64,000 nucleotides of DNA from Mesorhizobium sp. BR1-1-16 (GTDB taxonomy: Bacteria > Pseudomonadota > Alphaproteobacteria > Rhizobiales > Kaistiaceae), in the NCBI RefSeq assembly GCF_020165495.1, contig NZ_JAIUIE010000016.1:1-64000 (forward strand), given 5' to 3'. Below, piece by piece: positions 13,431-19,048 of the stretch. The position numbers were made by a program, and so were the translations under genes. Position 1 is the stretch's first letter, and each line of letters begins with the position of its first letter. The notes beneath the pieces were generated by a model, which saw only the letters and a list, made by a program, of their open reading frames with translations, ran no database searches and was not told the DNA's origin.

Positions 13431-14870
13431 TCAGCCGAGGCCGTGCACCAGCACGTTGCGGAACTGCCAGGGGTCGCTGGTATCGATGTCCTCAGGGAAG
13501 AAGCCAGGACGATCGGTGAGCGGCGTCCAGTCGGTGTAGACGCCCTCGACCGTGCCGAGATACGGCCGCTGGATGCGCAGGCAGAAGTGATAGTCCATCT
13601 CGTCCGCCTCGACGATGCCGGCGGCCGGATGCTCAAGTGCCCACACCATGCCCGCGACGACGGCTGAGGTCACCTGCATGCCGGTGGCGTTTTGATAGGG
13701 CGCGTTCTGCCTTGCTTCGTCGATCGTCAGGCGCGAGCCATACCAATAGGCATTCTTGGCATGGCCGTAGAGCAGCACGCCGAGCTCGTCGCGGCCGGCG
13801 ATGATCTCCTCTTCCGAGAGGATGTGCTGCTTGGCCTGGCGTTGGCCTGACCGGCCGAACAATTCATGCAGCGACAGCACCGCATCGTTGGAAGGGTGAT
13901 AGGCATAATGGCAGGTCGGCCGGTAGACCACCTCGCCTTCCTCGCGCACCGTGAAATGATCGGCGATCGAGATGGCCTCGTTATGCGTCACCAGGAAGCC
14001 GAGCTGCGGTCCCGGCGTCGGGCACCAGGAGCGCACGCGCGTATCAGCGCCTGGCCCAAGCAGAAAGATCGCAGCGCCCGAACCGGTGTCATGCGCGCGG
14101 GCATGATCGGGGACCCATTTCTCATGCGTGCCCCAGCCGAGTTCCGCCGGCTGCAGGCCCTCCGACACGAAGCCGTCCACCGACCAGGTGTTAACGAAGG
14201 TGTCGAGCGGCTTCGGATTGCGCGAACGCTGCGTGTCGCGCTCGGCGATGTGGATGCCCTTGACGCCGGTGGCGCGCATCAGCGCGGCCCATTCGCGGCG
14301 GCTCTTCGGCTCCTCGAAATCGATGCCGAGATCGCGCGCGACATCGACCAGCGCATGCTTGACGAACCACGAAACCATGCCCGGATTGGCGCCGCAGCAC
14401 GAAACCGCGGTCGGCCCGCCCGGATGGGCGCGCTTTTCGGCCAGGAGTTCCTCGCGCAGCGCATAGTTGGAGCGCGAGGCCGGATCGGCCTTGTGGTCGT
14501 AATAGAAGCCCGGCCAAGGCTCGATCACGGTGTCGATATAGAGGCTGCCGAGCTCGCGCGTCAGCTTCATGATGTCGAGCGAGGACGTGTCGACCGAGAG
14601 ATTGACGCAGAACGCCTGTCCCTCCCCGCCCGTCAAAAGCGGCGTCAGCACCTCGCGATAGTTTTCACGCGTCAGCGCGACGCGAACATGGCGCGCGCCG
14701 AAGGTGGCGAGCAGTCCGGCGTTCTCGTCGCCAGGCTCGACAACGACGATCTGCGCGCGATCAAGCGCGAAATGACGCCGAAGCAAAGGCAGGATGCCGC
14801 GTCCGATCGAACCGAAGCCGATAATGACCACGGGGCCATCGATACGACCATAGACCGGCCAACTTGCCAT
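13431..14870 (-). CDS. hss: Homospermidine synthase
   Basis: 479 aa, the normal length. An N-terminal Rossmann fold (VVIIGFGSIGRGILPLL, about residues 13-29) binds NAD; the conserved stretches VNLSVDTSSLDIM, YIDTVIEPWPGFYYD, SCCGANPGMVSWFVKHAL and the Trp-rich C-terminal region match bacterial Hss. It makes sym-homospermidine from two putrescines (or putrescine plus spermidine) in the cytoplasm, using putrescine from the ornithine decarboxylase encoded upstream. The ATG at 14870 is chosen since AAGGAG lies 9 nt upstream; an in-frame ATG at 14888 contains that ribosome site. A terminator separates it from the acetyltransferase gene, so it may have its own promoter or depend on read-through. 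Confidence 0.95.
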   Translation of the reverse strand: MASWPVYGRIDGPVVIIGFGSIGRGILPLLRRHFALDRAQIVVVEPGDENAGLLATFGARHVRVALTRENYREVLTPLLTGGEGQAFCVNLSVDTSSLDIMKLTRELGSLYIDTVIEPWPGFYYDHKADPASRSNYALREELLAEKRAHPGGPTAVSCCGANPGMVSWFVKHALVDVARDLGIDFEEPKSRREWAALMRATGVKGIHIAERDTQRSRNPKPLDTFVNTWSVDGFVSEGLQPAELGWGTHEKWVPDHARAHDTGSGAAIFLLGPGADTRVRSWCPTPGPQLGFLVTHNEAISIADHFTVREEGEVVYRPTCHYAYHPSNDAVLSLHELFGRSGQRQAKQHILSEEEIIAGRDELGVLLYGHAKNAYWYGSRLTIDEARQNAPYQNATGMQVTSAVVAGMVWALEHPAAGIVEADEMDYHFCLRIQRPYLGTVEGVYTDWTPLTDRPGFFPEDIDTSDPWQFRNVLVHGLG

Positions 14871-14945
14871 TTGCTCATTCTCCTTCATTCAACCCAACAG
14901 AACGCGGCTAACCTACAGTCCTTCTGTGACGAACTGAACCTTCAT

Positions 14946-14985
14946 GAAAAAAGCCCGGCCGCTCCCTCGCGGGAACGGCCGGGCT
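14946..14985 (-). terminator. Rho-independent terminator after the odc-GNAT pair
   Basis: On the minus strand a perfect 10-bp stem (arms 14976-14985 and 14952-14961) with an inner 4-bp stem (14971-14974 with 14963-14966) is followed by a run of six T. It lies 19 nt past the GNAT stop codon and about 80 nt before hss, so it should end most odc-GNAT transcripts and uncouple hss. Confidence 0.85.
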
Positions 14986-15003
14986 CTGTCGTTTCGGCGA
15001 AGG

Positions 15004-15558
15004 TCAAGCTGCGAGGCGCAGCGGCTCCAGCACCTCGAAATCCGGTCCGACCAGCGACGGCGTCGCGAAATCGCCCGTTGGGAGCAGCATGCCGGCGGCA
15101 CCCGACAGAGCGCCTTCCGCGAATTCGAGCGCCATGAAGCGACGACGGTCGACGGGCCCAGGCATCAGCAGCCGCGTCGTGAGCGCGACCGAAAAGCCGA
15201 AGCGGCTGTAATAGTCCGCGTCGCCGACGAGGATCACGGCCTTGTGGCCGAGCATCGCCGCGCGGTTCAGCGCTGCGCGCATCAGCTTGGAGCCGAGGCC
15301 TTCGCTCTGGCGCTCCGGCGCCACGGCGAGGGGGCCAAGCAGCAGCGCGTCGCGGCCGCCGGCCGCAACGTTCCACAGCCGCACCGTGCCGACCAGCGCA
15401 TCGCCATCGCGCGCAGTGAGAGCGAGGCCGGCAGCCGGAAGACGGCCTTCGCGCAGGCGTTCGGAGCTCTTCAGGAAGCGGTCCGGACCCATCGCGCGGT
15501 CGAGCAGGAGTTCACGGGCGCCGGCTTCCGCCGGCGCCTCTGCGCCAATCACGATCAT
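15004..15558 (-). CDS. YhbS-like GNAT N-acetyltransferase
   Basis: 184 aa. The acetyl-CoA binding motif A is visible in LGPLAVAPERQSEGLGSKLM (R/Q-x-x-G-x-G/A), and LVGDADYYSRFGF matches the COG3153 (YhbS) group. The substrate is not known for this group. It is 12 nt downstream of the ornithine decarboxylase gene and before a strong terminator, so it belongs to the decarboxylase transcript. This position raises the possibility of acetylating a diamine or polyamine, but neighbouring conservation rather than sequence would be needed to support that. Confidence 0.85.
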   Translation of the reverse strand: MIVIGAEAPAEAGARELLLDRAMGPDRFLKSSERLREGRLPAAGLALTARDGDALVGTVRLWNVAAGGRDALLLGPLAVAPERQSEGLGSKLMRAALNRAAMLGHKAVILVGDADYYSRFGFSVALTTRLLMPGPVDRRRFMALEFAEGALSGAAGMLLPTGDFATPSLVGPDFEVLEPLRLAA

Positions 15559-15570
15559 GATGCGATGCCT

Positions 15571-16704
15571 TCAGATCACGTAGGAGGCAAGCGGCTCAAA
15601 GCCGTTGAAGGCGACGGCCGAATAGGTCGTCGTATAGGCGCCCGTACCCTCGATCAGGACCTCGTCGCCGATCGAAAGCGTAACGGGCAGGTTGTACGGG
15701 GTCTTCTCGTAGAGCACGTCGGCCGAATCGCAGGTCGGGCCAGCGAGGATGCAGGGCGCGACGGTATCGCCGTCATGCGTCGTGCGGATCGGGTAGCGGA
15801 TCGATTCGTCCATCGTCTCGGCGAGGCCGCCGAACTTGCCGATGTCGAGATAGACCCAGCGCGGATCATCCTCGCGGTCGCTCTTCTTGGAGATAAGCAC
15901 GACCTCGGACTTGATGATGCCGGCATTGCCGACCATGCCGCGGCCCGGCTCGATGATCGTCTCCGGAATGCGGTTGCCGAAATGCCGCTTCAGCGCCTGG
16001 TCGATCGACGAGCCATAGCTCTCGACGCCGGGAACTTCCTTGAGGTAGCGGGTCGGGAAACCACCGCCGAGATTGACCATCGACAGCTGGATGCCACGCT
16101 CGGCGAGCGTCTCGAAGATGCCGGCAGCCGATGCGAGCGCGCCGTCCCAGGCTTCCGTGTTGCCCTGCTGCGAGCCGACATGGAAAGAGATGCCATAGGC
16201 GACGAGACCGAGGCGCTGGGCATGCTCGAGCACGCCGACAGCCATTTCGGGCTCGCAGCCGAACTTGCGCGACAGCGGCCATTCGGCGCCGGCGCCATCG
16301 CAGAGGATGCGGCAGAACACGCGCATGCCGGGAGCGGCGCGCGCGACCTTCTCGACCTCGGCTTCGCAATCGACCGAATAGAGGGCAATGCCGCGCGAGA
16401 AGGCGGCGGCGATGTCGCGCTCCTTCTTGATCGTGTTGCCATAGGAGATGCGGTCGGGCGTCGCGCCGGCGGCCAGCGCCATGTCGATTTCAGCCACAGA
16501 GGCGCAATCGAAGCACGAGCCGAGCGAGGCGAGCAGACGCAGCACTTCCGGCGCCGGGTTTGCCTTCACCGCATAGAAGATGCGGGTGTCAGGCAGCGCA
16601 TGCGCGAAGGCCAGGAAATTTTCCCGCACGACATCGAGATCGACCACGAGGCAGGGGCCATCGGGACGTCGGGTGTTGAGGAAGTCGATGATGCGAGCGG
16701 TCAT
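15571..16704 (-). CDS. Ornithine/lysine decarboxylase, PLP fold type III
   Basis: 377 aa. The alanine-racemase-like barrel is clear: PLP lysine K47 in FYAVKANP, HVGSQ with H175, the glycine loop NLGGGFP (211-217), EPGR at 252-255 and the catalytic Cys C325 in GPTCDSADVLYEK. The length and motifs match alphaproteobacterial ODC/LDC-like enzymes making putrescine (or cadaverine) in the cytoplasm. The ATG at 16704 is used; an ATG two codons upstream (16710) is equally possible, and neither has a strong ribosome site. The gene has an unusually long 5' region (see leader entry), which is the likely level of control by polyamines. Confidence 0.93.
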   Translation of the reverse strand: MTARIIDFLNTRRPDGPCLVVDLDVVRENFLAFAHALPDTRIFYAVKANPAPEVLRLLASLGSCFDCASVAEIDMALAAGATPDRISYGNTIKKERDIAAAFSRGIALYSVDCEAEVEKVARAAPGMRVFCRILCDGAGAEWPLSRKFGCEPEMAVGVLEHAQRLGLVAYGISFHVGSQQGNTEAWDGALASAAGIFETLAERGIQLSMVNLGGGFPTRYLKEVPGVESYGSSIDQALKRHFGNRIPETIIEPGRGMVGNAGIIKSEVVLISKKSDREDDPRWVYLDIGKFGGLAETMDESIRYPIRTTHDGDTVAPCILAGPTCDSADVLYEKTPYNLPVTLSIGDEVLIEGTGAYTTTYSAVAFNGFEPLASYVI

Positions 16705-16710
16705 GGACAT

Positions 16711-17240
16711 GATCCCAAGGGCCGAGCGAAGGCCCACTAAGCGTTGCGAAACGGCGAAGCGGAGCAGAGCCTTCGCGCCAACCGCTATGGACGCGGTGGG
16801 AACGTTGACAGAGCGCCGTTTTGCCGGCTAAGCCGGCAGATTTCGCGGGTGGCGGTCGCGGCTGGAACTCTCTCGAGTTTCGTGAGCGCCGCCGTCGCTT
16901 GGAACGGGAAGACCCGATCCGCACGCCCGGCAAGGATGTAGTGCCTCTTCAGTGACCACGGCCGATGGAGAGCCGGTAGAGACCAAAAAAGCCCGCTACG
17001 TCGTTGCTTCAAGTCGCGTCCTCCGCGGAGACGGAGTTCACCGGTTCGCTTTCCGGCTGCCGACCTTTCCAGGATCACTCCTGGACTCCTTCGTGGCCCT
17101 TTCGGGATCCACATGGGCGTCGCCCCGGCCTCTTGTCCGGAGCCCCACCGGTCGGCACGCAACCACAGGCACGTGCGATAATTGGGCAAGGCGTACGTAT
17201 GATGATCGACCGTCGCATTCAAGCGGTTTTTGGTCTCGCG
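16711..17240 (-). ncRNA. Candidate speF-type structured leader of ornithine decarboxylase
   Basis: About 530 nt of non-coding sequence precede the decarboxylase gene. Minus-strand hairpins seen: a 6-bp stem closed by a GTGA (GNRA) tetraloop at 17069-17084, a 7-bp stem with a 3-nt loop at 16822-16838, a 6-bp stem at 16754-16776 and a 5-bp stem at 16719-16735 just before the start codon. Alphaproteobacterial ornithine decarboxylase genes are known to carry the speF regulatory RNA motif (Rfam speF) in this position. That this leader is a speF member is inference from position and structure; I could not align it to the covariance model. Boundaries are approximate. Confidence 0.55.
17075..17218 (-). 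other. Possible upstream ORF inside the odc leader
   Basis: A 47-codon frame starts at ATG 17218 (MRRSIIIRTP...) and ends with TGA at 17075-17077, placing the stop codon inside the GNRA-capped hairpin. It is Arg/Pro/Cys-rich and has no clear ribosome site. Ornithine-sensing leader peptides control speF in gammaproteobacteria, so a leader ORF would make sense, but nothing in the sequence proves translation. Confidence 0.25.
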
Positions 17241-17458: not shown

Positions 17459-19048
17459 ATGAGCGAAACGGTCGTCGGCGAAAAGGGCATGGTGGTGGCG
17501 CCACACAGGGCGGCCGCGGAGGCCGGCGCCGAGATCCTGCGGGCCGGCGGCAATGCCATCGAGGCGATGATCGCCACTGCGGCCACCATCGCAGTCGTCT
17601 ATCCGCATATGAATGCAATCGGGGGCGACGGCTTCTGGCTGATCCGCGAGCCGGGCAAGGAACCGCGCTATATCGAGGCCTGTGGCGGAGCGGGCGCGAA
17701 GGCAACCATCCGCGCCTATCACGACAAGGGTCACGAGCGCATTCCCGTGCGCGGCCCCGACGCCGCCGTGACGGTTGCTGGTGCCGTCTCGGGCTGGGAT
17801 CTCGCCTTCCAGCTCTCGCAAAGCTTCGGCGGCGCAATCGACCGCCGCACGCTGCTGGCCGATGCCATCGCGAGGGCCAAGAACGGCATCGCGGTGACAC
17901 GGTCGCAGGCGCATCTCACCAAGGTCCATCGGGACGCACTCGCCGCCGCCCCCGGCTTCTCGGACGTATTCCTCAAGAACGGTGAGGCACCGGATCTCGG
18001 CGATACAATCTGCCAGCCGCGACTAGCCGAGACGCTCGACCAACTCGCCCATGCCGGCTTTCCCGATTTCTACCGAGGCGACGTCGCACAGGTCATCGCC
18101 GATGATCTCGAGCGCATCGGCGCGCCGGTGACGCGGGATGATCTTGCCCGCCACGAAGCGCGCTTCCGCTCGCCGCTCTCGGTCCGCCTTGGCGATGCGA
18201 CCGTCTACAACGCCCCGCCGCCGACGCAAGGCCTCGCTTCGCTGATCATTCTCGGCATATTCGAGCGGCTCGGGGTCAAGCGCGGCGAAACGTTCGACCA
18301 TGTGCACGGCCTCGTCGAGGCGACGAAGCGCGCCTTCATGATCCGCGACCGCGCCGTGACCGACCCGCTCTTTGCCGGCGACGTCTCGGTGCATCTCAGC
18401 CCGCGCGCGCTGGAACGCGAGGCAGCGGCTGTTGACATGAAGCGCGCCCTGCCCTGGCCGCAGGTAGCCAACAAGGGCGATACGGTCTGGCTGGGCGCGA
18501 TCGACGCGAACGGCCTCGCCGTCTCCTATATCCAGTCGATCTTCTTCGAATTCGGCTCGGGTTGCGTCCTGCCGCAGACCGGCATCACCTGGCAGAATCG
18601 CGGCTCGAGCTTTTCGCTCGATCCGGGCGCGGTCAATCCGCTGGAGCCTGGCCGCAAGCCCTTCCACACGCTCAATCCGGCGATGGCGCGCTTCGACGAC
18701 GGCCGCATCATGAGCTATGGCACCATGGGCGGCGAAGGCCAGCCGCAGACGCAGGGCGCCGTCTTCACCCGCTATGCGCGTTTCGGCATGGACCTCGCGG
18801 CGGCCATCGACGCGCCACGCTGGCTGCTTGGAAGAACCTGGGGTTCGGATGCCACAAATCTTCGCCTCGAAAACCGCTTCGATCCCGACCTCGTCATCGC
18901 CCTCCAGCGCGCCGGCCATGACGTCGAGGTGATCGATGAAGCCTATTCCGATGTGATGGGTCATGCCGGCGCGATCGTTCGCCGCAAGGATGGCCGTCTC
19001 TTCGGTGCATCGGACCCGCGCTCCGACGGCGCAGCCGTGCCGGCGTGA
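17459..19048 (+). CDS. Gamma-glutamyltransferase-family Ntn hydrolase
   Basis: 529 aa. N-terminal half: GMVVAPHRAAAEAGAEILRAGGNAIEAMIA and PHMNAIGGDGFWLI, standard for the family. The autoprocessing site is Thr342 in NKGDTVWLGAIDANG, the new N terminus of the small subunit; GEGQPQTQGAVFTRYARFGMD and the C-terminal AGAIVRRKDG follow. No signal peptide, so it is likely cytoplasmic, unlike periplasmic GGT. The start at 17459 has GGGAGAG about 5 nt upstream; the frame stays open for 169 codons before it but that overlaps the decarboxylase leader. Likely co-transcribed with the amidase and LysR genes. Whether it acts on glutathione or another N-acyl compound is open; members of this branch include acylases. 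Confidence 0.88.
   Translation: MSETVVGEKGMVVAPHRAAAEAGAEILRAGGNAIEAMIATAATIAVVYPHMNAIGGDGFWLIREPGKEPRYIEACGGAGAKATIRAYHDKGHERIPVRGPDAAVTVAGAVSGWDLAFQLSQSFGGAIDRRTLLADAIARAKNGIAVTRSQAHLTKVHRDALAAAPGFSDVFLKNGEAPDLGDTICQPRLAETLDQLAHAGFPDFYRGDVAQVIADDLERIGAPVTRDDLARHEARFRSPLSVRLGDATVYNAPPPTQGLASLIILGIFERLGVKRGETFDHVHGLVEATKRAFMIRDRAVTDPLFAGDVSVHLSPRALEREAAAVDMKRALPWPQVANKGDTVWLGAIDANGLAVSYIQSIFFEFGSGCVLPQTGITWQNRGSSFSLDPGAVNPLEPGRKPFHTLNPAMARFDDGRIMSYGTMGGEGQPQTQGAVFTRYARFGMDLAAAIDAPRWLLGRTWGSDATNLRLENRFDPDLVIALQRAGHDVEVIDEAYSDVMGHAGAIVRRKDGRLFGASDPRSDGAAVPA

Follow-up and report, generated by a model that had tools for sequence, protein, structure and literature searches.

The DNA analysed here (the window) is a stretch of 64,000 nucleotides from the Kaistia-like genome of Mesorhizobium sp. 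BR1-1-16. Its minus strand carries a run of genes headed by an ornithine decarboxylase gene:

15571..16704, minus strand: ornithine decarboxylase gene (odc); Pfam PF02784 and PF00278, both above cut-off
15004..15558, minus strand: GNAT acetyltransferase gene (Pfam), the next gene after odc
13431..14888, minus strand: homospermidine synthase gene, third of the run; matches solved homospermidine synthases, best E 3.7e-236

Among solved structures, the best matches of the Odc protein, which we take to be of fold type III, are lysine/ornithine decarboxylases, and its closest named relative is from Kaistia soli (99%). The gene starts at a conserved ATG at 16704, and a second ATG lies in frame at 16710. 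A divergent gamma-glutamyltransferase frame, recognised by a domain match, lies on the plus strand with an apparent start near 17459, so that the gap between this frame and odc is about 750 nt. In NCBIfam, Odc falls under the lysA cut-off (168.8 vs 297.9) with no model naming Odc above its cut-off, and the homospermidine synthase has no match of any kind; there is thus a risk that the two are misannotated as lysA or saccharopine dehydrogenase. A 598-codon open frame at 14944-16740 on the plus strand, antisense to odc and its neighbour, is probably a by-product of G+C-rich codon choice.

The original prediction had called attention to a long non-coding stretch before the decarboxylase, at 16711..17240. 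The minus strand bears this out, and those limits nearly coincide with the transcribed leader and promoter that we propose (start 17187, -35 at about 17222). The leader and its surroundings contain the following features:

17194..17222, minus strand: promoter-like sequence; -35 TTGAAT at 17222-17217, 17-nt spacer, -10 TACGTA at 17199-17194
16987..17187, minus strand: ar45 domain, Rfam RF02347, the 5' half of the leader; 47.8 bits, gathering score 40, full model length
17184..17187, minus strand: P1 5' strand GCCC of the ar45 closing stem, pairing with GGGC at 16994-16991
16991..16994, minus strand: P1 3' strand GGGC, pairing with GCCC at 17184-17187
16985..16990, minus strand: U-tract, six T directly after P1, the presumed intrinsic termination point giving the ar45 RNA
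16982..16999, minus strand: 5' arm of the covarying helix H1, GUAG ... GCUUUUUUGGU
16938..16953, minus strand: 3' arm of H1, ACUGAAGAGGC-A-CUAC, a highly conserved speF stretch
16830..16978, minus strand: speF leader, Rfam RF00518; 51.2 bits, gathering score 37, full model length
16717..16733, minus strand: GGGCC..GGCCC hairpin directly before the start codon, from the window sequence alone

The prediction of a single speF leader, with a check against the Rfam covariance model, was right as to speF, which matches on the minus strand and lies on the same strand as, and upstream of, a COG0019-type ornithine decarboxylase. It needs amending as to extent, since about 200 of the 530 nt belong to a second family, ar45, with a U-tract of its own. 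Both hairpins that had been singled out are present; the GNRA one, CCC-GAAA-GGG, is situated within ar45. The whole genome contains a single match to each family, and the two are separated by 8 nt. Compared with dinucleotide shuffles, the ar45 part (16985-17187) folds with z = -3.80 (0/200 as stable), the speF part by itself with z = -0.13 (88/200) and the whole leader with z = -2.13 (2/100). The structure signal therefore stems mainly from the ar45 half.

The association of the two families extends well beyond the window. Among 297 genomes of the order, Rfam matches to speF occur in 145 and to ar45 in 127, and 123 of the 127 ar45 matches sit 6-12 nt upstream of a same-strand speF. The gap is 6 nt in 1 pair, 7 nt in 16, 8 nt in 96, 9 nt in 9 and 12 nt in 1, so that 112 of the 123 pairs are spaced 7-8 nt apart, though ar45 itself ranges from 56 to 226 nt. 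Reading the DNA after the other four ar45 matches (G052, G089, G186, G264) showed speF-like sequence, and none of the ar45 matches read in the order is solitary. Conversely, 20 of the 23 speF matches without an Rfam ar45 match have the ar45 3' end (GGGCTTTTTTGGT) by reading, one of these loci being cut by a contig end; the 23 include two weak second-site matches (G265:C30 and G052:C3), which were left out. The ar45 3' end was not seen by reading in G033, which was dropped (weak speF match, no ar45, no Odc). Across 386 genomes of the class, speF was found in 15 and ar45 in 14; all 10 genomes outside the order with both families have a gap of 8-9 nt, and the other ar45 match outside the order (G538) was dropped as weak and coding-like.

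The odc gene lies on the same strand as the leader in 157 of 158 loci, and its start follows the speF start by 167-482 nt in all 155 of the 158 loci in which a start was found; in the window, it lies 483 nt downstream of the ar45 start. The 3' core of ar45 and the U-tract are present in 79 of 80 named odc loci, 77 of which have the 5' core too, and in the exception (L112) the contig extends just 333 nt upstream of the gene. In 8 of the 9 genomes of family f22, ar45 is merely 56-57 nt long, hardly more than the two core strands. This minimal form, consisting of the core strands joined by a short loop, is seen at 859-915 of locus L182 (G068) and in the relatives G104, G135, G186, G208, G228, G264 and G280. 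In three of these (G104, G186 and G264) the P1 strands are no longer complementary, and the terminator may therefore be decaying there.

An attenuator would have two helices that share nucleotides. The first, P1, is nearly invariant: of 150 parsed genomes, 145 carry GCCC/GGGC, two from one family carry the compensated pair ACCC/GGGU and three are non-complementary (7 of 157 rows were lost to pattern parsing). The core strand TCGCACGT, found in 142 of 156 genomes around an insertion of variable length, and the core strand GCAACGAC, found in 148 of 150 parsed genomes, are similarly constant, with the reservation that these counts lean upwards because the search patterns already require part of those strands. 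It could be argued that the leader is structured for mRNA stability alone and has no regulatory role, in keeping with the failure to find a ligand in 2005. We consider this very improbable, given that near-invariant strands flank an insertion of variable length and that short ar45 RNAs have been published.

The U-tract that follows P1 consists of six T in 123 of 156 genomes and of five in 11, and is broken in 22. Interrupted tracts (such as CCUUUCU and UUCCUU) occur in 12/12 genomes of family f23 and in 5/10 of family f17, and H1 pairing is largely retained in them; the tract may therefore be selected there more for pairing than for termination. A terminator scan of the window did not find the U-tract site. 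An intrinsic terminator is a GC-rich local hairpin with a U-tract after it; here P1 is predicted directly before a U-tract, in a stem that is long and interrupted.

Computed folds suggest that P1 depends on where the RNA ends. In RNA ending at the U-tract, P1 has a probability of 0.97 in the window; averaged over its pairs, the probability is above 0.5 in 152 of the 156 genomes compared (G279 and G033 were left out of these counts). When the RNAs are extended 75 nt into speF, P1 exceeds 0.5 in 0/156, the U-tract is paired downstream in 155/156 and the first eight H1 pairs exceed 0.5 in 127/156. In the longer transcript, the U-tract and its flanks pair with ACUGAAGAGGC of speF, which excludes the ar45 stem. 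Stepwise lengthening in 52 genomes gave P1 above 0.5 in 50 at the U-tract, 37 at +5, 20 at +20, 27 at +30, 42 at +40, 10 at +45, 2 at +50 and 0 at +65. In the model, P1 thus fluctuates and returns before it finally disappears at +40 to +45 nt, as ACUGAAGAGGC emerges; this exchange is not a clean step, because computed P1 is weaker already before +35 nt. With shuffled tails, P1 above 0.5 was kept in 96/520 shuffles vs 0/52 real sequences. Since shuffled tails often dissolve P1 too, its loss alone is weak evidence, and the specific evidence for a switch is covariation, not energy.

This covariation lies in H1, whose general form is GUAG-(n)-GCUUUUUUGGU pairing with ACUGAAGAGGC-(n)-CUAC. In the window, H1 folds alone with z = -2.05 (7/200 shuffles as stable). 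We aligned 52 non-redundant segments from 23 families, obtained from 156 after removal of near-duplicates, and RNAalifold predicted 9 of the 15 H1 pairs although H1 was not supplied. In this alignment, 92.9% of H1 cells are paired vs 88.2% in shuffles (0/500 as high), the covariation score of 0.231 stands above both the shuffles (0.161; 0/500 reach it) and slid partners (0.07-0.11), and changes on both sides are found in 38 cells vs 21.9 in shuffles (0/500). Neither the number of H1 pairs with a double change (311/500) nor the number of pair types (207/500) exceeds the shuffles. These shuffles are generous because relatedness is not kept in them, and the covariation tool itself warns that related sequences can beat shuffles without any structure.

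The distal segment of H1 takes different forms in different families, namely GUAG/CUAC, GGUG/CACC, GUAA/UUAC, GAUG/CAUC, GGAU/GUCC and GAAC/GUUU. Its mean pairing score is 9.37 vs 7.80 after permutation (0/2000 reach it), and 9.48 vs 8.05 with one genome per family (0/2000). Counting distal helices of at least 4 bp gave a significant result over all sequences (19/2000 permutations) and no difference from permutations by family, one genome each (292/2000); helices of at least 3 bp were not significant over all sequences (138/2000) or by family (750/2000). In G089, UUUUUUCGGU replaces its relatives' UUUUUUGGU and ACCGAGGGGAC replaces ACUGAAGAGGC, and the helix, paired by eye, is preserved.

H1 starts 9 nt upstream of the U-tract, inside ar45, and extends three bases beyond it; selection in cis therefore needs one RNA that contains both. 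Alternatively, the same complementarity would serve in trans if the 3' end of terminated ar45 (GUAG..GGGCUUUUUU) paired with ACUGAAGAGGC..CUAC of separate odc mRNAs, the covariation then being that of an sRNA with its target; the binding of ar45 to Hfq in S. meliloti would fit such a role. We regard this as improbable, as the helix runs beyond the U-tract into GGU, which would be absent from terminated ar45, and the two strands belong to a single stretch, with about 45 nt between them. The pairs 26-67, 27-66 and 29-65 hold in 49/50, 49/52 and 47/51 sequences, in columns that are also simply conserved.

Other pairings around the two domains were set aside. A helix H0 between ar45 UCGCACG and speF CGUGCGG is complementary in most of the 156 genomes and remains unproven, since the variable genomes lack covariation (within family f34, 1177/2000 permutations do as well). 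The distal speF segment UUGCC..GUGCGG (about 16933-16912 in the window), which complements ar45 UCGCACG, is itself highly conserved in most loci. A separate stem between the spacer GGUCUC and GAGGC is superseded by H1, which shares its 3' strand and takes in the U-tract. Masking of the Shine-Dalgarno sequence by the GGUCUC spacer is not claimed: GAGACC precedes the start codon in 16/155 genomes and a 6-bp match in 55/155, uncontrolled counts on sequences that are purine-rich anyway.

The promoter-like site has its -10 element ending 6 nt ahead of the ar45 start. A TTG begins 32-40 nt upstream of this start in 152/152 parsed genomes, and when the candidate start sites from there to odc are scored with a promoter profile that was trained on other families, the ar45 start ranks first in 144 of the 152. 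Six of the 158 loci were left out of this count: G249, G235 and G279, in which no start site was parsed, G162 and G066, in which no odc start was found, and G033. A generic consensus scan gave no sigma-70 match at the promoter-like site of the window.

A promoter-like site would also be expected if ar45 were its own transcription unit, and it has been proposed as such. In this reading, ar45 is an sRNA gene acting in trans via Hfq, and odc and speF have a promoter of their own. In Bartonella, ar45 occurs as a discrete RNA apart from a speF-containing transcript of over 700 nt, and the authors of that work take ar45 to be expressed independently of speF; in S. meliloti, ar45 co-purifies with Hfq. 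A possible -35 element of an inner start, a TTG in the strand just before GCAACGAC, is present in 68 of 156 genomes, and in 8 of 152 some other site outscores the ar45 start. We nevertheless judge two independent neighbours to be unlikely. The possible inner -35 is missing in the other 88 of 156 genomes, and the 56-57-nt forms of ar45 leave little space for an inner promoter. The spacing of 7-8 nt in most pairs, the lack of a solitary ar45 among the matches read in the order and an H1 helix that reaches into ar45 and over the U-tract call independence from odc into question.

A translated upstream frame could also control odc. In the enterobacterial speFL leader, such a frame acts through ribosome stalling, and in the window a frame of 114 codons from TTG 16933 overlaps the odc start. 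We rejected this candidate, which we consider highly unlikely: the G+C-rich DNA here contains many long open frames, and the stretch after UUG varies by 1-2 nt within families (UUGCCGCGUGCGG vs UUGCCGGGCGUGCGG in f45; UUGCCGGCGUGCGG vs UUGCCGGACGUGCGG in f27), length changes that a conserved frame would not survive.

We favor, with moderate confidence, the interpretation that ar45 is the prematurely terminated leader of odc and that ar45 and speF together form one transcription attenuator. Sequence comparison, through the linkage, the spacing, the promoter-like site before ar45 and the covarying H1, suggests that what is catalogued next to speF as an 'independent small RNA' is in fact the truncated first half of this leader, so that the two RNA families probably act together as a single on/off switch. 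Transcription, including that of the full odc mRNA, would begin at the ar45 start. The nascent 5' end would pair with a strand 50-220 nt later, forming P1 and a nearly invariant interrupted stem. This fold would arise first, directly before the U-tract, where RNA polymerase may often stop and release the ar45 RNA. If the polymerase passes the U-tract, ACUGAAGAGGC is predicted by energy calculation to emerge 40-45 nt later and capture the U-tract and its flanks, whereby H1 would displace P1 and lock the transcript in a read-through fold toward odc. H1 cannot prevent the stop on the first pass, because its 3' arm is downstream of the U-tract; the decision must therefore lie in the ar45 core. The near-invariant core strands within the terminator stem probably bind a signal, whether metabolite or protein, which would set the frequency of the stop at the U-tract.

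As to the nature of this signal, six related compounds, including ornithine, putrescine and spermidine, showed no binding to speF in 2005 (PMC1273637), and the accessible part of that report does not list homospermidine among the compounds tried. A homospermidine synthase gene follows odc in the window and, within at most 2.5 kb, in 56 of 80 named loci. For these two reasons homospermidine is a candidate ligand, and our naming it as the signal is a guess; the position of the S. meliloti synthase gene, which according to the accessible text of PMC13293326 is not near other polyamine genes, speaks mildly against it. A more far-reaching reading, which we find doubtful although conceivable, is that ar45 is not an sRNA gene at all: it would be the released 5' piece of a so far unrecognised, terminator-embedded polyamine riboswitch, with homospermidine as candidate ligand, and the speF half would serve as an unlocking strand with a set timing, undoing the terminator 40-45 nt past the point of escape and committing the RNA to expression of odc. 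If true, the two Rfam families would become a single class of switch.

Should ar45 and speF be one attenuator, the earlier binding assays would have to be repeated with an RNA that stops at the U-tract, looking for targets of ar45 in trans would be the wrong course, and regulation of the principal putrescine-forming gene in many alphaproteobacteria could be tested directly. The two families and their adjacency are already in print: PMC2573895 lists 'smrC45 (speF)', and PMC7717549 places speF immediately downstream of ar45, as far as the accessible parts of both go. In the open literature, we did not find ar45 described as a terminated odc leader with an exclusive, covarying second fold, and priority is uncertain. 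The joint two-state mechanism may be new; part of what counts as new here may be contained in Greenlee 2018, which the available text of PMC7266159 cites for additional conserved sequence and structure of speF. The same text still counts speF among the orphan riboswitch candidates, and ar45 is termed an sRNA of unknown function in the portions available of PMC7717549 and PMC12403871.

Discrete ar45 RNAs have been reported, in the accessible parts of the sources, from S. meliloti, with a length of 181 nt (PMC2780559) or coordinates spanning 148 nt (PMC7143759), from B. bacilliformis (PMC7717549) and from M. sporium (PMC12403871). In another M. sporium record (L134), the ar45 core sits before odc. 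The window shares with ar45 / SmrC45 / SmelC706 (RF02347) a family match above cut-off and a position before odc, which in S. meliloti is between SMc02983 and SMc02984; the published RNA is described as an independent, possibly trans-acting sRNA, whereas we interpret it as the terminated odc leader. With speF (RF00518; Corbino et al. 2005, PMC1273637) it shares a match above cut-off and the same downstream gene. According to the 2005 text, the motif includes a stem carrying a four-stem junction and, after it, a long stem-loop with bulges; in its accessible part, the first stem is treated neither as a terminator nor as exclusive with the second (PMC1273637). The Rfam speF model begins past the U-tract, omits the 5' arm of H1 and pairs GGCA with UGCC instead.

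The enterobacterial speF leader (PMC6386406, as far as available) also belongs to an ornithine decarboxylase gene, and shares the gene name speF. The 'speF' RNA of Clostridioides difficile listed in a review (PMC11477304, accessible part) has, by that review's own account, no sequence conservation with the family and reflects a naming clash. The spermidine riboswitch, a SAM-I variant (PMC10853860, available text), likewise exerts RNA control of polyamine biosynthesis and is a different RNA from speF/ar45; SAM-I has no match above its gathering score in the window. A precedent for a conserved aptamer inside an intrinsic terminator stem is found in the HMP-PP riboswitch, in the accessible part of PMC6478431. 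We claim no sequence relation to it; unlike in that riboswitch, the competing helix proposed here lies downstream of the U-tract, and the ligand is a candidate only.
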